64,000 nucleotides of DNA from Gemmatimonadota bacterium (lineage in GTDB: Bacteria; Gemmatimonadota; Gemmatimonadetes; Gemmatimonadales; Gemmatimonadaceae), in NCBI GenBank assembly GCA_026387895.1, contig JAPLKT010000041.1, forward strand, positions 35,611 through 99,610. Reading direction: 5' to 3'. The position numbers and the translations under genes were made by a program. The notes below the pieces were generated by a model that was not told where the DNA came from, did no database searches, and saw only the letters and a list, made by a program, of their open reading frames with translations. Below are positions 4,450-15,320 of this stretch, one piece after another (positions within the stretch are counted from its first letter, which is position 1; each line of letters opens with the position of its first letter).

Positions 4450-5508
4450 CTACCGCCGCAGCACCGTGCGGTAGCGGACGTCGCCCTCGGCGCTGATGAC
4501 CTGTACGAGGACTGAGTCCGCAGTCATGCTGAAGGCCATGAAGCCGGTGACGCTCTCCACGTAGCGCGTCGCCGGCGTTGCGTTGGTGCCTCGAGTTTCG
4601 GAGCCGGCACCGGAAATGAAGAACTGGGGTCCAGCGGTGTCGGGCGCGATGTGTTCTAGGTGATGCTCGTGGCCGCTGAGGAGTGCGGTGACGTGGTACT
4701 GTCGAAGTCGCGGCGCCAGGAACTGTTCGAATGGCGTGTTGGTGCCCCGGGGTCCGGAGCTGTACACGTGGTGATGCGTGACCACGAACTTCCACTGCGC
4801 CGTAGACGCCGAGAGGGTGCTGTCGAGCCACCGGCGCTGTGCTACGGTGTCGGCGCCCTTGAGCTGGGACGCGCCGTCTTCGCCGTCCTTAAGATTAAAG
4901 GGGTTGCTGTCCATCACCAGGAACTCAGCCTTCACCCCTGGGGCAACGTCGCGCGTGAAGCTGTAGAAGCGTGACGGCATGTGCCAGCGAGGCGTGCGCA
5001 GGCCGTATGCGACTTCGGCGTCTGGATTCTGGCGGTAATCATGGTTCCCGAGCGACGGATACCAGGGGACGCCGAGTGATGGAGCATCGTACACGGATTC
5101 GAACGATTTTTTGAACTGTGCGTCGTCGCCGGTTTTGACGCCGTCGGGATAGAAGTTGTCGCCAGCGGTAATAACGAACGCCGCGTGCAAGCTGCCGGCG
5201 GTGATACCCATCGCCCTCGCGACCTCGCGTTGAGCGCGATTGCCGCCTCGGCCCCAATCGCCAAGGACGAGGAAGGAGACGGCCCCTTGGGGGGCGGCGA
5301 GGGGGACCGGTGGCCGGACGGCGGCGGGGGTACAGCCGAGGGAGAAGGCGAGAGCGCCGGCGAGGGTGCCGGCGAGGGAGCCGGTGAGGACGCCAGCGAG
5401 TGCGCGCCCTGCGCGCCCTGCGCGCCCTACGGCGATTTGTACGGCCGACCGGGAGCGGTGGCCAAGGAGCGTGCTGCGCGCGAAATGGATCATGCCGGAA
5501 ACTACCAC
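4450..5508 (-). CDS. metallophosphoesterase (purple acid phosphatase-like), exported; alternative start at 5493
   Basis: VLGDWGRGG, GDNFYPDG, LGNHDY, VTHHHVYSSG, LLSGHEHHLEHI metal-binding motifs. Confidence 0.85.
   Translation of the reverse strand: MVVSGMIHFARSTLLGHRSRSAVQIAVGRAGRAGRALAGVLTGSLAGTLAGALAFSLGCTPAAVRPPVPLAAPQGAVSFLVLGDWGRGGNRAQREVARAMGITAGSLHAAFVITAGDNFYPDGVKTGDDAQFKKSFESVYDAPSLGVPWYPSLGNHDYRQNPDAEVAYGLRTPRWHMPSRFYSFTRDVAPGVKAEFLVMDSNPFNLKDGEDGASQLKGADTVAQRRWLDSTLSASTAQWKFVVTHHHVYSSGPRGTNTPFEQFLAPRLRQYHVTALLSGHEHHLEHIAPDTAGPQFFISGAGSETRGTNATPATRYVESVTGFMAFSMTADSVLVQVISAEGDVRYRTVLRR
5356..5428. repeat. Compound tandem repeat: four 12-bp units (gccggcgagggt-like, 5356-5403) followed by three exact 9-bp units gcgcgccct (5402-5428)
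   Basis: Read directly; encodes GRAGRAGRA + LAGVLTGSLAGTLAGAL in the N-terminus of the minus-strand phosphoesterase. Confidence 0.85.
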
Positions 5509-5587
5509 GGAATCGGCTCGTCGGGGACTCGTTTTTCACGTACATTTCGGTGTGCCTCGTCGCCGATATGCCACCCGCGCCGTTCCC

Positions 5588-6736
5588 GTGCCTCCTCCGG
5601 CACCCACTGCCTCTGACCATGAGCTGGCGGCGGTCCGCGAGCTGTTGCATGCGATGTTGCGCGCAGATCATCCGGAGGAGGTGTTTCAGCACGCACTGGA
5701 TCGCGTTGTTCCGTTGACTGGAGCGTCCTTCGCGTCGGTGTATCTCGTCGACGGGGCATCGGAGCTGATGCGGCTCGTGGCCGCTTGCAACTGGCCCGAG
5801 TCGATGCGACCGTGGCTTGGCACGGCGCGCGTGCGCGTCGGATTTGGTCCGAGCGGCGAGGCAGCCAGTGAGCGCCGAGCGATTGAAATTCCCGATGTTT
5901 TTGCGGACCCCGATCTTGAGGATTGGCATGAGGTCGCGCGCGAGCTCGGATTCCGTGCGATTGTGGCGTTACCGTTACAGTCTGGGACCCGGGTGCTCGG
6001 AACTGTGGCATTCTACTTTGGTGAATCGGGGACTGTTGCGGTCTCCGTGCGGCCGTTTCTGCGTACGGTCGCAGAGCTGCTCGCTGCGGCGGCGGATAAG
6101 GCGCAGCTGTTTGAGGAGCTCAGGCGCGCTGACGCGTCTGTGGCAGACACGAGTGCCGAACTCGCGCGTGCGGACGTAGCGGTGCTGGATGAGCGTCGTG
6201 AGCGTGAGGCGCTGGTGCTGGCGATTGCCGACGGTGTCGCGGAGTCGCATGCGACAAACACGGGGGTCGGGGTCACGGTCGAGGCCCTTGTCGACCTCGC
6301 GGCATCCCTCCGAGGGACGCTGAGGGCCGAGATAGAGGAGTTTGATCCGCGCGTGCCGCTTCGTGATGCCATGAAGCAGGCGACCGGGCTCCCCGAGGGG
6401 GTCGCCTTGATCGCCGAGGAGCCGGTGCTTGCGCTGCCTCCGATGTGTAGCGACCGACAGAAAATCGCACGTACTCTAGTTACCTTTCTCGAGGCGGCGT
6501 ATCGGTCGTCTGGGGTGGCTGAAGTACGGGCGGCGATTCAGGTGGCCAGCGGTTCGGCCGTGTATCGCGTTTCGGGCGGTGAGAGCGCTCCGAGCGCGTT
6601 CGGTATGGCGGTGGCGCGATCGACCGCCGAGGCGTTGGGTGGGCGAGTTCTCCCTGATCCAAACGGGGGCTTTCGGTTGGAGCTTCCGATGCAGTGCCCG
6701 GTGGGTGGAACCCCGCCGGTTCCGGATGGTGTCTGA
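5588..6736 (+). CDS. GAF-domain protein with degenerate histidine-kinase-like ATPase C-terminus (GTG start 5588 or 5552 rather than 5240)
   Basis: GAF-like ASVYLVDGASELMRLVAACNWPE...IVALPLQSGTRVLGTVAFYF; C-terminus FGMAVARSTAEALGGRVLPDPNGGFRLELPM resembles the HATPase_c tail. The 5240 start would overlap the divergent gene. Confidence 0.65.
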   Translation: MPPPAPTASDHELAAVRELLHAMLRADHPEEVFQHALDRVVPLTGASFASVYLVDGASELMRLVAACNWPESMRPWLGTARVRVGFGPSGEAASERRAIEIPDVFADPDLEDWHEVARELGFRAIVALPLQSGTRVLGTVAFYFGESGTVAVSVRPFLRTVAELLAAAADKAQLFEELRRADASVADTSAELARADVAVLDERREREALVLAIADGVAESHATNTGVGVTVEALVDLAASLRGTLRAEIEEFDPRVPLRDAMKQATGLPEGVALIAEEPVLALPPMCSDRQKIARTLVTFLEAAYRSSGVAEVRAAIQVASGSAVYRVSGGESAPSAFGMAVARSTAEALGGRVLPDPNGGFRLELPMQCPVGGTPPVPDGV

Positions 6737-6772: not shown

Positions 6773-7066
6773 GTGGCCAATCAGCAGCGTAATCGCACTT
6801 TGCAGCAGGCACGTACCACGCTTGGTGGTGCCGAAGTCCTCGCTTCCGCCCGCGAGTTTTTCTCGCGCGAGTCGGGGATTTATTCCGCCTTCTTGGACAA
6901 GCAAGGGCCGACCTTCGTCAATCTTCGCGGCTTGGGTGGCGAGGAGATCGTCGTGGGCGTGAGCGACGCGCCGGGGGGTACTGCGGTGACGGCGTCGTCG
7001 TACATGTTCGACCAGCAGGTGGCGCGCTTCTTGGCGTCGCTGCCGCCCACCGCGGTGACCGCATGA
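6773..7066 (+). CDS. small conserved-looking protein of unknown function
   Basis: 97 aa ORF; its stop overlaps the next start (ATGA). Confidence 0.6.
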   Translation: MANQQRNRTLQQARTTLGGAEVLASAREFFSRESGIYSAFLDKQGPTFVNLRGLGGEEIVVGVSDAPGGTAVTASSYMFDQQVARFLASLPPTAVTA

Positions 7067-7401
7067 GCGCTATCGAGGTGAAGCGTCCCTTTGTGACCGC
7101 ACTGCGGAGCCGTCCTGGCATTATCCGCGTGGGCGATGGCGCGGCGCGCATGACCGTGCGCGTTCAGCTGGAGGAACGGTGGGAGACACTGGCGTTCGAC
7201 ACTGCGTCCGAGTCGCCGGTGCTCGCGCTGAAGCATGCGGCGCTCGCGCACTTTGGTCAGGCTGATGTGCCGGCTGAGGATTTTGTGCTGAAGCTGCGCG
7301 GCGTTGAGATCCTGGATGAGCAGGAGTCGCTCGCGTCCGCAACGGCACGGGATGGATCGACGTTTCTGCTCGCGTTCCGCCGTCGGCGTCCGGTTCGCTG
7401 A
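7063..7401 (+). CDS. small protein with probable ubiquitin-like beta-grasp fold
   Basis: MTVRVQLEERWETLAFDTASESPVLALKHAALAHFG...DFVLKLRGVEILDEQESLASATARDGSTFLLAFRRRRPVR matches the strand-helix-strand order and hydrophobic pattern of ubiquitin-like domains. Confidence 0.6.
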   Translation: MSAIEVKRPFVTALRSRPGIIRVGDGAARMTVRVQLEERWETLAFDTASESPVLALKHAALAHFGQADVPAEDFVLKLRGVEILDEQESLASATARDGSTFLLAFRRRRPVR

Positions 7402-7403
7402 TT

Positions 7404-8423
7404 GTGACGGGGAGCCCCTCGCGTCCGCTGGCTGAGCGCGAGGCGCTCTTGGAAGCGGCTGGTCGGCTTCGCGCCGAGGTCGCCAAGGCCATTGTGGGGC
7501 AGCACGATGTGCTCGACGAGATCCTCATGGGGCTCGTCGCTGGCGGGCATGTGTTGCTCGTCGGTGTGCCTGGTCTGGCGAAAACAATGATGATTCGCGC
7601 GGTGGCCGAGGCAATGCAGCTCGACTTCCGTCGTATTCAGTTCACTCCGGATCTCGTGCCCAGCGATATCACGGGGACGGAACTGCTGGAAGAAGACGCA
7701 AAGACCGGACAGCGGAGTTTTCGATTCGTGCGGGGGCCGGTGTTTGCGAACATCGTACTCGCCGACGAAATCAACCGTGCGCCACCGCGCACGCAGGCTG
7801 CGTTGCTTGAGGCGATGCAGGAACATCGGGTGACCGCCGCTGGGCAGACGATGCGCCTGCCCGAGCCGTTCTTCGTGCTCGCGACGCAAAATCCGATTGA
7901 GCAGGAAGGGACGTATCCGTTGCCGGAAGCGCAGCTTGATCGGTTTTTGTTTGATGTGCGTATTGGGTATCCTAGCGCAGACGAAGAAGTCGCGATCTTG
8001 CGTGCGACGACGGGGCGCGAGCGGGTGCCGCTGACGCCGGTGCTCACCGGCGAAGAAACGCGCGCGCTCCAGCAGATGACCCGCGACGTGGCCGCGTCGG
8101 ATGCGGCGTTGCGCTACGCGGCGTCGCTCGCGCGTGCGACCCGCCCGGACGACAGCACCGCGACGGATCTCGTGAAGCGGTACGTCCGATGGGGCGCGGG
8201 GCCGCGTGCTGGTCAGGCGCTGATTTTGGGGGCGAAGGCGGCTGCCTTGTTGGCGGGACGCCTTGCGGTCGCGCCGGAGGACATCCGTCGGGTGGCGCGT
8301 CCGGTGCTCCGGCATCGCGTGCTTCCGAACTTCGCCGCTGAGGCGGAGGGTGTGACGTCGGAGCGTGTGGTGGAGGATTTGCTGGACCGCGTGACGCCGC
8401 CACGCAGCGATCTGTCGGTATAG
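7404..8423 (+). CDS. MoxR-family AAA+ ATPase
   Basis: GHVLLVGVPGLAKTMMIRAVAEAM Walker A; VLADEINRAPPRTQAALLEAMQEHRVT Walker B; ATQNPIEQEGTYPLPEAQLDRF. Confidence 0.95.
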   Translation: MTGSPSRPLAEREALLEAAGRLRAEVAKAIVGQHDVLDEILMGLVAGGHVLLVGVPGLAKTMMIRAVAEAMQLDFRRIQFTPDLVPSDITGTELLEEDAKTGQRSFRFVRGPVFANIVLADEINRAPPRTQAALLEAMQEHRVTAAGQTMRLPEPFFVLATQNPIEQEGTYPLPEAQLDRFLFDVRIGYPSADEEVAILRATTGRERVPLTPVLTGEETRALQQMTRDVAASDAALRYAASLARATRPDDSTATDLVKRYVRWGAGPRAGQALILGAKAAALLAGRLAVAPEDIRRVARPVLRHRVLPNFAAEAEGVTSERVVEDLLDRVTPPRSDLSV

Positions 8424-8426
8424 CGC

Positions 8427-9296
8427 ATGGCGGTCGGCCCGTACGGCGCGCTCCTAGAGTCCGTGCGTGGCGTACGCTGGCCCGCGCGGCGCTCGGTGGC
8501 TGGTGGTGCGCCCGGCGCACATGTGGCGCGCAGTCGCGGGGTGGCAACGGAGTTCGTCGAGTATCGCCCGTACCGGCAGGGCGATGATCCGAAGCGGATC
8601 GACTGGAAGTTGCTCGCGCGCAGTGATCGCGCGTTTATCCGTCTGGCGCCGGACCGTGCCGTGCTCGGCACCCTTATCATCGTCGATGCGTCGGCGTCGA
8701 TGGATTTCCCCAAGGATGCTGCCGATGTGGGCGTGCGGTCGAAATGGCGGTGCGCGCGCGAAATTGCGGTCGGGTGTGTGGCAATCGCGCACGCGGGAGC
8801 GGACCCGGTGGGACTTGCCGTGATTGGCGGCGGCGGCGTGGCGCGGCTCACGCCTCGTACGCGACGGGGGGTTGTGGCCGAGGCGGCCCGTACGCTCGAT
8901 GCGCTGATGCCTTCGGGGGCGGCGGCGCTCGACCAGGGGTTCATTGGAGCACCGGCACGCGTGCTTGTCGTGACTGATTGTCTTGGTGACTTGGACGTGC
9001 TGGTGAACACGGCGCGGGCGCATGTGGCGGGCGGTGGCGAGGTATTCGTGGCGCATGTGGTGTCGCGCCGCGAGCTTGATCCCGCGCCCGGGGCGCAGCT
9101 CGCGGTCGATCCGGAGGACGTGTCGGTGGAACGGCCGCTGACCGACGAAACGCGCACGGCGTATCGTGACGCGTTTGCTGGGTGGCGACGGGAGACGGCA
9201 CGACGCTGGCGCGACGCGGGTGTTGGGTATTCCGAGATTTGCGACGACGATCCGATGGACGTCGCGATCCGCACGATCGTAGCGCCCGTCGCATGA
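8427..9296 (+). CDS. DUF58 domain protein
   Basis: VEYRPYRQGDDPKRIDWKLLARSDRAFIR signature; DASASMDF VWA-like MIDAS. Confidence 0.92.
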   Translation: MAVGPYGALLESVRGVRWPARRSVAGGAPGAHVARSRGVATEFVEYRPYRQGDDPKRIDWKLLARSDRAFIRLAPDRAVLGTLIIVDASASMDFPKDAADVGVRSKWRCAREIAVGCVAIAHAGADPVGLAVIGGGGVARLTPRTRRGVVAEAARTLDALMPSGAAALDQGFIGAPARVLVVTDCLGDLDVLVNTARAHVAGGGEVFVAHVVSRRELDPAPGAQLAVDPEDVSVERPLTDETRTAYRDAFAGWRRETARRWRDAGVGYSEICDDDPMDVAIRTIVAPVA

Positions 9297-10450
9297 CCTT
9301 CGCGGCGCCGCTGGCGTTTGGGATCGCGGTGGCGGCGTCGATTGCGACGGTGCTTTTGCATGTGATTTCCACCCAGCGGCCACGACCTACCGTGTTACCG
9401 ACGGCGCGATTCGTGCCCTCTGGTGAAGCTCAGGCGATCTCACGGGCGGTCCGCCCGACGGATCTCCTGCTGCTCGCGCTGCGCGTGCTCGCGCTCCTGC
9501 TGTTGGGCGCTGCCTTTGCGGGGCCGCGGTTTGCGTCGTCGCGGTTCGGAATGATCCGGATGATTGTTGCCGATGCATCGCGTGCGGCACAGCCAGATGT
9601 CGGCGATTCGGTCACCGCGCTCTGGCGAGCTGGGGATCGTGTGGTGTGGTTCGATTCGTCGGCTGATGCGGCCGTTGACTCAGCGGGACGTCGCACGAGC
9701 AGCACGGCGAAGGGGCGATTGTCGGCAGGGCTCGTACGAGCACATCAGCGCATGCTTGAACTTTCAGAACATTCAGACTCACTCGAGCTTGTGATTATTT
9801 CTCCTCTGCTGGGCGAGGAGATGGACGCGGCAGTTGTGCCGCTCGCAGCGCGATGGGCGGGCCGTGTGCGTGTCGTGCGGAGTCATTTGCTCGAAGCGCG
9901 CGCTCGATTGCCGCAGAAGACCGTAGTGACGGAGCCTTCCTCGACTGATAGCGCCGCCGCGCGTGCTGGGGCAGCCGTGGTGTGGTGGCCCGAGGCTCGC
10001 GATGGACAGGCTCCTTCAGCGCACGCCGACGCGGTGTGGGCGGGAGATGCGACGGTGGTGGCACAGCTCGCGCGACTTCCGATGCGGCATGACGGGCAGG
10101 TCGTGGCGCGGTGGAGCGACGGTGCCCCAGCCGCGAGTGAGCAGCGATTGGGCGCAGGATGTGTGAGGCGTGTATCGATTGGCATCCCTCGGGTGGGCGA
10201 CGCGCAGTTACAGCCGTCGTTCGTCGCACTGCAGCGGGCCGTAGAGCTGCCGTGTGGCGTAGCCGTAGAGCCCGCGACCGACGCAGCGCTTCGAGCGCTC
10301 GCCCGCGACTGGCCGCGGCGAGGGGAGGGTGCGGGCAGTCGATCAGCGCTGCCGCCGCGTCCCTCGACGACGCTGTGGCTGCTCGCACTTGCGGCGTGCG
10401 CCCTCGGACTCGAGTTGTTTGCGCGCGCGCGCGCCGAGGCGGGACGATGA
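9293..10450 (+). CDS. BatA-like N-terminal domain membrane protein
   Basis: MTFAAPLAFGIAVAASIATVLLHVISTQRPRPTVLPTARFVP typical BatA N-terminus; C-terminal TM helix; ATGA overlap with DUF58 stop. Confidence 0.85.
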   Translation: MTFAAPLAFGIAVAASIATVLLHVISTQRPRPTVLPTARFVPSGEAQAISRAVRPTDLLLLALRVLALLLLGAAFAGPRFASSRFGMIRMIVADASRAAQPDVGDSVTALWRAGDRVVWFDSSADAAVDSAGRRTSSTAKGRLSAGLVRAHQRMLELSEHSDSLELVIISPLLGEEMDAAVVPLAARWAGRVRVVRSHLLEARARLPQKTVVTEPSSTDSAAARAGAAVVWWPEARDGQAPSAHADAVWAGDATVVAQLARLPMRHDGQVVARWSDGAPAASEQRLGAGCVRRVSIGIPRVGDAQLQPSFVALQRAVELPCGVAVEPATDAALRALARDWPRRGEGAGSRSALPPRPSTTLWLLALAACALGLELFARARAEAGR

Positions 10451-12525
10451 GCCTGCCAATGCCGCCGCGCCGCAATATCTTAGGGCGCGTACAGCAGGTG
10501 GCGGACACGCTCCGGCTGGCGCGGATAAGTCGAGTGGTGCTCAGTGCGCTGGCGTGTGTCGTGAGTGTGTGGGCCGCCGCTGCTTTGCTGGACACGGTTG
10601 TCGAGCTCTCCGTAGCGGTGCGACAACTTGTGTTGCCAGGTGCCGTATTCGCGGCATCGGTGATCCTCTGGTTGGGTCGTGCGCAGTTGCGCGTGGTGGC
10701 CGTCGATCGGGCGGCACTGTGGATTGAGGAGAGGACACCGTCGCTCCGCTATGCACTGGTGACGGCGGTGGACCCGCTGTACCAAGGCCGCGTACCCGAA
10801 CTCGACGCGCAGGTCGACACACACCGCTATGATGACGTGGCGCGCGGTGTGGTGTGGGGTGCCGTCCGTTTGCCGGCGGCGACGGTGTTCGGCACGTTCC
10901 TCGTATTGCTTTTGCTCCCTCGAGGCAGTGTCGAGCGCGTTGCGCGCCCGGCGGCTGGCGACGTGCTACGTCGTGAAACGTCCTCGGTGTCGCGTGATCC
11001 CCTTGCGACGCTGGTGGTCGTGATCGAGCCGCCGACGTATACGGCGTTGCCGAGCACGACGAGCGATGATCCGTCGTCAGTGCGCGCGCTGGTCGGAAGT
11101 CGGGTGACGCTTCGGGGTCGGCGCGGCAGCGATGGGGTGTATGCGACCGTGGACAGCACACGACGTGCGGCGCAGGACAGCGACGGCCGGTGGCAACTTA
11201 CGGTGACCATGCCGAGTGCATCCGCCGTACTGGCGCTCGTTGCGGGCTCGCATCGACGACTGCTGTCGCTCGAGCCGGTGGCGGATTCCGCACCGGCGGT
11301 GGTTTTGGTCGCGCCGGCACGAGACTCGATCCTCCGGCGGCCGAGTGGAAGTCTCGCGCTGAGCGCCGAGCTGTCCGACGATCATGGGCTCGCGTCGAGT
11401 GCGTTCGAATACATCGTCAGTTCTGGTTCCGGTGAAAGCTTCACGTTCAAGTCGGGTACGCTTGGCGCGCTGGAGTTCGCGGGCGCGCGAAACGGCCGCG
11501 GCACGATCTCGGCGCGCCTATCGATTGATGCACTCGGCATGCGCGCCGGGGACATCGTGCATGTGCGCGCGGTTGCGCGGGATCGCAATACGGTGTCGGG
11601 GCCGACACTCGGTGTTTCTGAGACGCGTACGATCCGGATTGCGCGCGCCGATGAATACGATTCGGTATCGGTTGATGCCGCTCCCCCGCCGGAGCCGGAG
11701 AAGAACGCGCTCAGTCAGCGCATGTTGTTGCTGATGTCCCAAGCGTTGGAGAAGAAACGCCGTGTCTTGGCCAAGGGTCCGTTCGTGAGCGAGTCGCGCG
11801 CCATTGCCCTCGATCAGACGCGCCTGCGCAAGCGTGTGGGAGAGATCGTGTTTCAGCGGTTGGGTGAGAGCGGGGGTGAGGGAGGTGACGCGCTCGAGCG
11901 GCGACTCGACCGTCCTACGAACCCAGATTCGGTGCTGGCCGCCGCTGATCGCGCGACCGGTGCGACCTCCGGAACGGCGCTCGAAGGAAGTGCTGATGAG
12001 ACGCCGGTGGTCGCAGTGAATCGTCCGCTGCTTGAGGCGTACAACTTCATGTGGAGCGCCAGCACGGAGTTAGAGCTTGGCGAGCCAGGGCGGGCTATCC
12101 CGTGGATGCAGAAGGCGCTGGATCGGTTGCAGGCGGCGCGTTCGGCGGAGCGGATTTATCTCCGTGGGAAAGTGCGCGCCGTGATCGTGGACATTGCGAA
12201 GGTACGCCTCTCGGGGAAGGACAGGGGCGCGGGCAGTGTTCGGGTGCCGCGTTCTGCGGCCGACCCCGGTCGCGCGCTGCGACTCACGCGATTCGACGCG
12301 ATGGTAGCACTCGCGACGCATCTGCCATCGGCGGCGGCAGATTCGCTCGTGTTGCTTCGCCTCGAGCTTATTGATCGAGACCGAGAGACGGCGCAGGCTC
12401 TTGAGGTTGCCTCCGTCGCGCTTCGTCGTGGTGGTGACGTGACCGCGGCGTTTATCAAAGCGCGTCGCTCGCTTGCGGGTGACATCGAGCGACGCGCCGG
12501 CATTTCGTTGTGGGGGGCACCGTGA
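10447..12525 (+). CDS. large membrane protein, DUF4175-like
   Basis: Two N-terminal TM helices, long extracytoplasmic Ig-like/coiled region; position in MoxR-DUF58-Bat cluster; ATGA overlap at 10447. Confidence 0.7.
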   Translation: MSLPMPPRRNILGRVQQVADTLRLARISRVVLSALACVVSVWAAAALLDTVVELSVAVRQLVLPGAVFAASVILWLGRAQLRVVAVDRAALWIEERTPSLRYALVTAVDPLYQGRVPELDAQVDTHRYDDVARGVVWGAVRLPAATVFGTFLVLLLLPRGSVERVARPAAGDVLRRETSSVSRDPLATLVVVIEPPTYTALPSTTSDDPSSVRALVGSRVTLRGRRGSDGVYATVDSTRRAAQDSDGRWQLTVTMPSASAVLALVAGSHRRLLSLEPVADSAPAVVLVAPARDSILRRPSGSLALSAELSDDHGLASSAFEYIVSSGSGESFTFKSGTLGALEFAGARNGRGTISARLSIDALGMRAGDIVHVRAVARDRNTVSGPTLGVSETRTIRIARADEYDSVSVDAAPPPEPEKNALSQRMLLLMSQALEKKRRVLAKGPFVSESRAIALDQTRLRKRVGEIVFQRLGESGGEGGDALERRLDRPTNPDSVLAAADRATGATSGTALEGSADETPVVAVNRPLLEAYNFMWSASTELELGEPGRAIPWMQKALDRLQAARSAERIYLRGKVRAVIVDIAKVRLSGKDRGAGSVRVPRSAADPGRALRLTRFDAMVALATHLPSAAADSLVLLRLELIDRDRETAQALEVASVALRRGGDVTAAFIKARRSLAGDIERRAGISLWGAP

Positions 12526-13136
12526 GCGCAGACTTTACCTTCTGCACCGTCCAGTACGACAGTGGCGATTGGGATTCGGCACCGCTCGTGCCGGCGAACC
12601 TGATTGATTCAGTGGCGCGCTACACGAGCATCCGCGTCGCGCCGACCGGAGTGTCCGTGCCGCTTGGCTCGCGCGATATCTTCCGCTATCCGTTGGCGTA
12701 TTTGACGGGGCATCTTCCCGTGCGCTTCACCGATCTTGAACGGCGTACGTTGAAGGAGTATTGCGAGCGCGGCGGACTGCTGTTCGTGGACGATCACAAC
12801 CACGACGTGGACGGTGTGTTCCACAAAACGTGCACCGAGGAGATTGCGCGCGCCGTAGGGCCGATGAAAGAGCTATCGAACACGCACGCGCTCTTCAGGA
12901 GCTTCTTCACGTTCGAGGATGGTCCGCCGGCGACCTCGCACGAATTGAACGGTTGGGGGGACAATCTCATCCATAAGCATTTACAGGCCGTGTTGCACGG
13001 CGACCGTATTGCGGTCCTCTACTCGAACAAGGATTACAGCTCCGAGTGGGGCTACCATCCCGACAACAAGCGTTTTATGTCGGTAGACAACACGAAGTTC
13101 GGCGTCAATGTGGTGGTGTATGCGCTCACGCGGTAA
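12522..13136 (+). CDS. DUF4159 domain protein
   Basis: FTFCTVQYDSGDWDSAPLVPANLIDSVARYTSI...YPLAYLTGHLPVRFTDLERRTLKEYCERGGLLFVDDHNHDV; GTG start 12522 overlaps the previous stop. Confidence 0.88.
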   Translation: MSADFTFCTVQYDSGDWDSAPLVPANLIDSVARYTSIRVAPTGVSVPLGSRDIFRYPLAYLTGHLPVRFTDLERRTLKEYCERGGLLFVDDHNHDVDGVFHKTCTEEIARAVGPMKELSNTHALFRSFFTFEDGPPATSHELNGWGDNLIHKHLQAVLHGDRIAVLYSNKDYSSEWGYHPDNKRFMSVDNTKFGVNVVVYALTR

Positions 13137-14391
13137 TCCGAGACGCGTGTGGACGGAGCGGACGCTTCGCGGTGCCGCCTTTGCTCTGCTGGCGTGGGCG
13201 ATGTGGCGCGTCGCGGTGGCGAACGGCGTGGGGCGGGCGGTGTCGCTTGAGAGCGCCTCGGTGGAATCGGCGTGGCCGCGTCTGCTTGACGGCGGGCACG
13301 ACGCGGCGCACCTCACGATCTCGCGTGGATTGCCTGCGGACTCGACGCGAGATGTGCTGGCCGCGTTCGCGCACGCGGGCGTGCGGATGAGTTGGTCAGG
13401 GCCGTCCCTGTCGTCGGTCGCGATGTCTGTCGAACGTGTGCGCGAGCCGGACCAGTCAACGCTCATGCGCGTGGTCGGTGCCGGTCGAGTCGTTGTTCGC
13501 GACGGCATATCTGTGCTTGACAGCGTAGGGGATGCGTCGCACGGACTGACGATCTTCTTGGCGGCGCCTCAGGGTGTGTTCCGCGGATCCGGAACGTCCG
13601 GGACCGCGTCGGCAGTGCCGACGGCCGCTCGTGCGCTGCACCCAGTGCTGGTCGTCGGGCGTGCGTCGTGGGAGACGAAGTTCACGGTCGCGGCACTGGA
13701 GGAGCAGGGGTGGACCGTGGAGTCGCGCGTGCCAGTCGCGCCAGGTGTCGAGGTGACGACCGGAACGCGCCAGCCGCTTGATACCGCGCACTACGCGGCC
13801 GTGGTCGCACTCGACAGCGCTGCGGCGGAGCTCGCGACATCGATTGTTGCGTACGTGCGCTCGGGCGGGGGGCTTGTGCTGCTGTCCGACGCGGCGCGGT
13901 TGGGGACCTTTGCGGCGCTTGTCCCCGCGACCGTTGATGCGCGTCAGTCAAGCACGAAGCGCAGCTTCGATCCCGCCGCGCCGTTGGCATCGCTTGGCCT
14001 GACGCCGCTGTCGATGCACGACGATGCGGTGGCACTCGACGTGCGTGGTGTCACGGTCGCCGTGGCGGCGCGGCGTGAACGTGCGGGGCGTGTTGTGGTC
14101 GTGGGCTACGACGAGCTGTGGCGATGGCGGCTTGAAGGGGGCGTTGATGCGGTCGTCGCGCACCGTCGATGGTGGTCGCGGACGGTGGGCGCGGTGGCTG
14201 CCGGTGGTGGTCCCGCCGCGAACGCTCCTGAGGGCGCACCGATCGCGCGATGGATCGATGCGCTCGGACCCGCCACCACTGTCGTGCCAAACCACGCGCC
14301 CGCGGACCCGCTTCCCCCGTGGCTCCTGCTCGTGCTGTGTAGCATCTTGCTCGCGGAGTGGGGATCACGTCGAACTCGCGGAGCACGATGA
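13108..14391 (+). CDS. membrane protein with class I GATase-like central region, BatA/Bat-cluster associated
   Basis: N- and C-terminal TM helices flanking LVVGRASWETKFTVAALEEQGWTVESRVPV...AAVVALD...VAYVRSGGGLVLLSDAA. Confidence 0.65.
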   Translation: MWWCMRSRGNPRRVWTERTLRGAAFALLAWAMWRVAVANGVGRAVSLESASVESAWPRLLDGGHDAAHLTISRGLPADSTRDVLAAFAHAGVRMSWSGPSLSSVAMSVERVREPDQSTLMRVVGAGRVVVRDGISVLDSVGDASHGLTIFLAAPQGVFRGSGTSGTASAVPTAARALHPVLVVGRASWETKFTVAALEEQGWTVESRVPVAPGVEVTTGTRQPLDTAHYAAVVALDSAAAELATSIVAYVRSGGGLVLLSDAARLGTFAALVPATVDARQSSTKRSFDPAAPLASLGLTPLSMHDDAVALDVRGVTVAVAARRERAGRVVVVGYDELWRWRLEGGVDAVVAHRRWWSRTVGAVAAGGGPAANAPEGAPIARWIDALGPATTVVPNHAPADPLPPWLLLVLCSILLAEWGSRRTRGAR

Positions 14392-15320
14392 GCGTCGCCT
14401 TTATCAGTCATGCCGATTGCGGCCGTCACGATACGGGATGGGGACATCCCGAACACGTGGGACGTCTGCGCGCGATCCCGCGCGCGTTGCGCTACCACTT
14501 CGACCTGTTCGAGGCGCTCGCACACCTCGAGGGGCGGCACGCGACGGAGGACGAGATTCTTCTCGCCCACGACGCTGCCTATGTGACGTCGGTTCGAGAT
14601 TTAGCGCAGCGTGGCGGCGGGCGTTTTGACGCCGACACCGTGGCAAGCGACGGGTCGTGGGACGCAGCAACAGCAGGGGCGGGAAGTGTGCTCGACGCGG
14701 TGGATTTTGCGATGACCGGACAGCACCTCCGCAGTTTCTGCGCGGTCCGTCCGCCCGGGCATCACGCCCTCCGCGCGTCGGCGATGGGTTTCTGCCTGTT
14801 CGGCAACGTCGCCGTTGGGGCGCGCTATGCGCGGAAAGTGCATGGCGCCGAACGGGTGCTCATCGTCGACTGGGACGTCCACCACGGCAACGGGACCCAA
14901 TCGCTCGTCGAGGACGAGGCCGACATCCGCTTCATTTCCATGCACCAGTGGCCGTGGTATCCCGGAACGGGCGCGCGTGACGATCGCGGGCCGCACCAGA
15001 ATGTCTGGAACCTGCCGATGCCTGGCGCGCTACCGGCAGAGGCGTATGTGTCCGAGCTGCTGCGCGCGGTGGATGCGGCCACGGAGGACTTCACCCCCGA
15101 CCTGGTCATGATTTCCGCCGGCTTCGACTCGCTGAACGGTGATCCGCTCGGCGGATTCACACTGGAGTTGGACGACGTCGACCACCTGACCCGTGAGATG
15201 GCCGCCCGGGCCGACTACTGGTGTGGCGGACGGCTCGTCAGTGCGCTGGAAGGGGGCTACGCGCCCGATCGGCTCGGGGACGCAGCAGTGACGCACCTGA
15301 AGGCGCTCGCAGGTCTCTAG
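14388..15320 (+). CDS. histone deacetylase / acetylpolyamine amidohydrolase family protein
   Basis: HPEHVGRL, RPPGHHALRASAMGFCLFGNVAVGARYA, VLIVDWDVHHGNGTQ, ISAGFDSLNGDPLGGF; ATGA overlap with upstream gene. Confidence 0.93.
   Translation: MSVAFISHADCGRHDTGWGHPEHVGRLRAIPRALRYHFDLFEALAHLEGRHATEDEILLAHDAAYVTSVRDLAQRGGGRFDADTVASDGSWDAATAGAGSVLDAVDFAMTGQHLRSFCAVRPPGHHALRASAMGFCLFGNVAVGARYARKVHGAERVLIVDWDVHHGNGTQSLVEDEADIRFISMHQWPWYPGTGARDDRGPHQNVWNLPMPGALPAEAYVSELLRAVDAATEDFTPDLVMISAGFDSLNGDPLGGFTLELDDVDHLTREMAARADYWCGGRLVSALEGGYAPDRLGDAAVTHLKALAGL

Follow-up and report, generated by a model that had tools for sequence, protein, structure and literature searches.

The 112-amino-acid open reading frame (ORF) studied here encodes a protein with a predicted ubiquitin-like fold, and this protein looks like one half of an undescribed two-protein module. 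Judged by gene order, its constant partner is P97, a 97-amino-acid protein encoded immediately upstream, and not the MoxR ATPase encoded downstream. We hold with moderate confidence that the ubiquitin-fold protein is not conjugated to targets as a protein tag and that it is a protein–protein interaction subunit working with P97. Among the papers that literature searches listed, none reports on P97 together with the ubiquitin-like gene. The features of the locus are listed in Table 1 by their positions in the window, which is the whole stretch of 64,000 nucleotides that was analyzed and comes from a Gemmatimonadaceae genome.

Table 1. Features of the locus, with coordinates in the window and the basis for each assignment
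Feature	Position	Strand	Basis
GAF-domain gene, start uncertain (5240 or 5471)	5471–6736	+	Pfam GAF
P97, 97-aa partner gene, conserved motifs RGxGGEE and FDQ	6773–7066	+	adjacency, AlphaFold2
ATGA overlap of P97 stop and ubiquitin-like start	7063–7066	+	sequence
Ubiquitin-like beta-grasp protein, 112 aa	7063–7401	+	homolog searches, family profile, AlphaFold2, Foldseek
N-terminal extension, residues 1–28 (short helix 10–13, extra strand 16–23)	7063–7146	+	AlphaFold2
Beta-grasp core, residues 29–105, invariant W40, K77, G80	7147–7377	+	AlphaFold2, alignment
C-terminal tail RRRRPVR, residues 106–112, no GG, poorly structured, conserved	7378–7398	+	AlphaFold2, tail alignment
MoxR, DUF58, BatA, DUF4175, DUF4159, and one more gene; lineage-specific block, outside the module	7404–14391	+	Pfam, presence by lineage
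Histone-deacetylase-family gene, more widespread downstream neighbor in the order	14388–15320	+	Pfam Hist_deacetyl on L229 ortholog

The ubiquitin-like gene and its predicted product

The ORF begins with an ATG at 7063, has its stop codon at 7399–7401, and was also recovered by codon-usage-based gene calling. The original prediction described a 112-amino-acid product ending in RRRRPVR with no C-terminal GG, which the sequence confirmed. Two positional details required correction: The stop lies 2 nt (7402–7403), not 3 nt, before the MoxR GTG, and the ORF does not head the cluster, because its first 4 nt are shared with the end of the P97 gene, which is itself preceded by a GAF-domain gene. Homologs of the protein were present in 55 of 61 related genomes. 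A family profile was positive in 182 of 298 Gemmatimonadota genomes; for the order Gemmatimonadales the table of these matches gives a count of 157 out of 172, and there the copy number was nearly always one per genome. Fifteen genomes of the order had no match; eight of these belong to a single genus (g13), in which P97 is kept. The ORF is a genuine conserved gene, far beyond chance, and its dN/dS of 0.11 against the nearest relative indicates that it is under purifying selection.

An AlphaFold2 model built from a 58-sequence alignment (pLDDT 86.8, pTM 0.76) had the beta-beta-alpha-beta-beta topology of ubiquitin, with strands at residues 29–36 and 41–48, a helix at 53–63, and strands at 74–78 and 100–105. 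The N-terminal extension, with its extra strand ahead of the core, is typical of Gemmatimonadaceae members; in the alignment, members from sister families mostly begin near the beta-grasp core. A Foldseek search of the PDB with this model gave 456 matches at E ≤ 0.001, headed by ubiquitin variants, Caldiarchaeum ubiquitin, SUMO, and NEDD8 (E 6e-6 to 5e-5), with target TM values mostly of 0.7–0.87. By sequence alone, the family profile recovered single ubiquitins, FAT10, and BilA from the PDB. Single- and two-domain matches had E-values of about 1e-4 to 5e-3, with one at 2e-5, and those to single ubiquitins and BilA were about 4e-4 to 5e-3; polyubiquitin chains, whose E-values were the lowest in that search, are inflated by their repeats and were left out, so that only single-domain matches were used. 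On the model, the 112-amino-acid protein has a ubiquitin-like beta-grasp fold, and the original prediction of this fold is borne out by the model, the Foldseek matches, and the family profile.

Pfam gave sub-threshold matches only for the window sequence, to a UBAC1-type ubiquitin-like family, YukD, and DUF2604. When 25 diverse members were searched, DUF2604 (PF10790) was the most frequently matched family, with 17 members, and 14 matched YukD. The best DUF2604 E-value, 8.5e-6, is that of one member whose bit score was not printed; the printed scores all fall below the 25-bit cut-off, at 16.7 for the window protein and 22.6 for the best member. No paper on DUF2604 was found.

The final residues of the model have a pLDDT of about 54, and the tail is therefore probably flexible. 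Its sequence is strongly conserved, typically as RRRxPVR: The pattern basic-basic-x-[P/A]-aliphatic-x occurs in 102 of 111 distinct homologs in the order. None of the 111, one of which is truncated by a contig end, has GG in its last six residues, which supports the earlier claim that there is no conjugation tail.

Pairing with P97, and P97 paralogs beside MoaD

With P97 as the query, the ubiquitin-like gene was directly downstream in 76 of the best 80 loci of a genome scan (named genome contigs, almost all Gemmatimonadota or Gemmatimonas by title). The 4-nt ATGA overlap was present in 65 of 72 measured pairs. Across the phylum, 204 of 298 genomes carry P97, and its dN/dS against the nearest relative was 0.07.

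P97 matched no Pfam family and had no PDB relative by sequence; its profile matches to polyubiquitin were discarded as an artifact, because LRGG-like stretches recur along such long chains. AlphaFold2 predicted a beta-alpha-beta4-alpha protein (pLDDT 86.6). Foldseek matches to this model were weak (best E 3.6e-3) and included AHSA1/START-like proteins, a KA1-like regulatory domain (2zfd_B, TM 0.71), and phosphoglucomutase C-terminal domains; we tentatively assign P97 a TBP-like or helix-grip layout. The structure 1v8c, which we take to be a Thermus MoaD-related protein with an added domain of P97's class, was absent from the PDB searches and from the best 50 Foldseek matches listed, and carries no evidential weight here.

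In two distant families the two genes are still paired, although every other neighbor has changed and both genes have strongly diverged. Profiles of the distant and window families matched with hhalign probabilities of 99.0 for the ubiquitin-like protein and 97.3 for P97, which supports homology of the distant pairs to the window pair. Because the distant pairs share no other neighbor with the window, gene order indicates that P97 and the ubiquitin-like gene are the minimal module.

The pairing has exceptions. In genus g13 and its close kin (loci L116, L122, L126, L132, and L185–L190), P97 is kept with no recognizable ubiquitin-like gene and, where the locus was read, has the deacetylase gene immediately after it. 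This speaks against our preferred reading, in that P97 can function by itself or with a different partner. Three weak P97 matches (E about 5e-4 to 7e-4) were seen in families f4 and f5 (L212–L214); at least two of these are immediately followed by an ORF that resembles the DbpA-type helicase seen near the distant pairs.

P97 paralogs occur in a second setting. In three other families a paralog lies directly upstream of MoaD at 19 of the 20 loci outside the ubiquitin-like context, the remaining locus having no MoaD. The order of genes (L191–L211) is P97 paralog, MoaD, and then MoaE, with MoaA in several loci; at L206, for example, P97 ends at 1770 and MoaD at 2095. Those downstream genes that were tested against Pfam matched ThiS/MoaD (with E-values as low as 6e-19), MoaE (3e-36), and Radical SAM (2e-28). 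The MoaD-type P97 matched window P97 with an hhalign probability of 99.7. A P97 tree splits the types, with few columns and weak deep forks. Members of the family thus have a ubiquitin-fold neighbor in each of two unrelated settings. This is the main ground for supposing that P97 handles beta-grasp proteins, and an apparent preference for ubiquitin-fold partners was counted for our preferred reading. Partner exchange, not simple co-descent, is a possible history for P97, because the MoaD-type P97 is closer to window P97 than is the P97 of the distant pairs (99.7 vs. 97.3); this too counts against the preferred reading. Within Gemmatimonadales, the MoaE locus is elsewhere (with MoaD there, where examined) and P97 is not beside it; most genomes of the order have MoaD-MoaE with no P97 alongside, so that MoaD does not everywhere need P97, a further point against the preferred reading.

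The same loci raise the alternative that the ubiquitin-like protein belongs to molybdenum-cofactor or sulfur-carrier biology, as a MoaD-like regulator or decoy that has lost its GG, with P97 acting on MoaD. MoaD has a GG C-terminus and is a sulfur carrier. The window protein shares the ubiquitin fold with MoaD/ThiS (PF02597), but it has no GG and a longer ubiquitin-type loop, its profile matches MoaD weakly (hhalign probability 29.5), and Pfam gives it no ThiS match. Given also that the order's own MoaE stands apart from P97, we consider this alternative unlikely, even with the 19 MoaD loci in its favor.

RNA binding is likewise improbable. In that case the domain and the arginine-rich tail of the ubiquitin-like protein would bind RNA as the SF3A1 ubiquitin-like domain does; the SF3A1 domain with U1 snRNA (8id2, 7p0v) is among the Foldseek matches, and a DbpA-type helicase lies near the pair in the distant families. 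However, ubiquitin-fold matches number several hundred, SF3A1 being just one of them, the locus has no RNA gene linked to it, and the tail conserved in the distant families, YDLGHYxRFxG or a close variant (YDLxHxxFxG) with several invariant residues, is not arginine-rich.

The MoxR block and other neighbors

The MoxR, DUF58, and Bat genes reported to adjoin the ORF were identified by Pfam as MoxR, DUF58, and BatA. Their position had led to the proposal that the ubiquitin-like protein is an adaptor for the adjoining MoxR ATPase, one that would deliver substrates to it or regulate it. We counted neighbors in usable loci deduplicated by protein, with our own gene calls and with annotation of representative clusters only. 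In Gemmatimonadaceae, the next gene downstream of the pair was MoxR, on the same strand and often within a few dozen nucleotides, at 44 of 73 distinct loci, and the histone-deacetylase-family gene at the other 29. In two sister families MoxR was directly downstream at none of 21 loci; the deacetylase gene was next at 15 of them and within 1.5 kb at all 21. In two more distant families neither gene was next at any of nine loci. Outside the one family, then, no conserved homologs were found beside other MoxR operons, an outcome that the original prediction had itself named as refuting.

MoxR genes were present in all 15 genomes checked, with 3–7 matches each, including genomes with none beside the pair; MoxR adjacency therefore does not explain the conservation of the ubiquitin-like gene. 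The block is sometimes upstream of the pair instead: It precedes P97 at one locus (L130), and at least its last three genes do so at another (L095). In the window the deacetylase gene lies just past the block. Because the sister families have no block at that place, the simplest reading of the gene orders is that its insertion, within Gemmatimonadaceae, separated the pair from the deacetylase gene, and the comparison indicates that the pair is older than its adjacency to MoxR. The adaptor proposal was rejected on this phylogenetic distribution and must be rated very unlikely.

A ubiquitin-like protein encoded near MoxR is also found in the FtsH-type vWA-MoxR ternary conflict systems (Kaur et al. 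2020, PMC7159879). Besides an effector domain, these systems include genes for E1, E2, a RING-type E3, and JAB, whereas no such genes or effector domain were seen at the window locus and its MoxR neighbor is not conserved.

The GAF-domain gene, which probably encodes a sensor, was upstream of the pair in 54 distinct Gemmatimonadaceae loci and was a neighbor in that family only. On visual inspection, the C-terminal half of its product in the window resembles a degenerate histidine-kinase ATPase domain; Pfam gives GAF only. One contig titled Candidatus Kuenenia stuttgartiensis (L137) has the Gemmatimonadaceae gene order, and is probably mislabeled or from a mixed bin.

Conjugation and the function of the pair

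A ubiquitin fold with a conserved C-terminus would also suit a covalent modifier, attached to its targets as ubiquitin is. We rejected conjugation for want of a GG tail in any of the 111 homologs, and no E1, E2, E3, or JAB gene linked to the pair was recognized in the gene-called, partly annotated neighborhoods of the order. In one distant family (L217–L223), only a few genes separate the pair from a MoeB-type E1 gene (ThiF plus rhodanese), which belongs to another transcription unit; at L223 a JAB-like ORF adjoins the E1 gene. The presence of an E1 gene there favors a modifier; however, the E1 of one distant locus, besides lying in the other transcription unit, seemingly has its own MoaD-like domain. 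Covalent modification is in our judgment highly improbable.

YukD/EsaB (PF08817) is, like the window protein, a small bacterial ubiquitin-fold protein, and YukD has been reported not to be conjugated (PMC1779556). Unlike YukD/EsaB, the window family has a constant P97 partner and a conserved C-terminal tail; the YukD matches of 14 of the 25 members speak for a YukD/EsaB-like role in type VII secretion, but such a role is hardly credible: These matches are sub-threshold (best printed member score 22.5 against a gathering cut-off of 27 bits), and no WXG100 or FtsK/EssC gene was recognized in the neighborhoods, where representative clusters were annotated.

A defense system was considered and rejected, because neither P97 nor the ubiquitin-like gene matched any of the PADLOC models. 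The near-universal, single-copy presence of the module in Gemmatimonadales also argues against a mobile defense or toxin role; it suggests a housekeeping or general stress role.

The reading that we prefer, an unconjugated interaction subunit working with P97, can be cast as a mechanism. The ATGA overlap would cause P97 and the ubiquitin-like protein to be made together by translational coupling, and the two proteins would form a complex. P97 would bind the beta-grasp domain, as its paralog may bind MoaD. The exposed tail of the ubiquitin-like protein would then dock the pair onto a third partner; a tail that is conserved and probably flexible, yet closed to the usual activation by an E1, points to a docking peptide.

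In bacteria, proteins with the ubiquitin fold are known mainly as sulfur carriers, as components of secretion systems, or as tags that defense systems conjugate. A near-universal, single-copy, non-conjugated ubiquitin-fold protein with a dedicated small partner would represent another use of the fold. The second pairing of P97, with MoaD, raises a general question that can be tested, namely, whether there is a family of small proteins dedicated to binding beta-grasp proteins. It is possible, though we put this forward tentatively, that P97 is the founding member of a partner family specific for ubiquitin-fold proteins, pairing with MoaD in certain lineages and elsewhere with a ubiquitin-like protein that is not conjugated. 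If so, P97 and its partner would constitute a bacterial ubiquitin-binding-like module that lies outside any conjugation pathway and is near-universal in one order.
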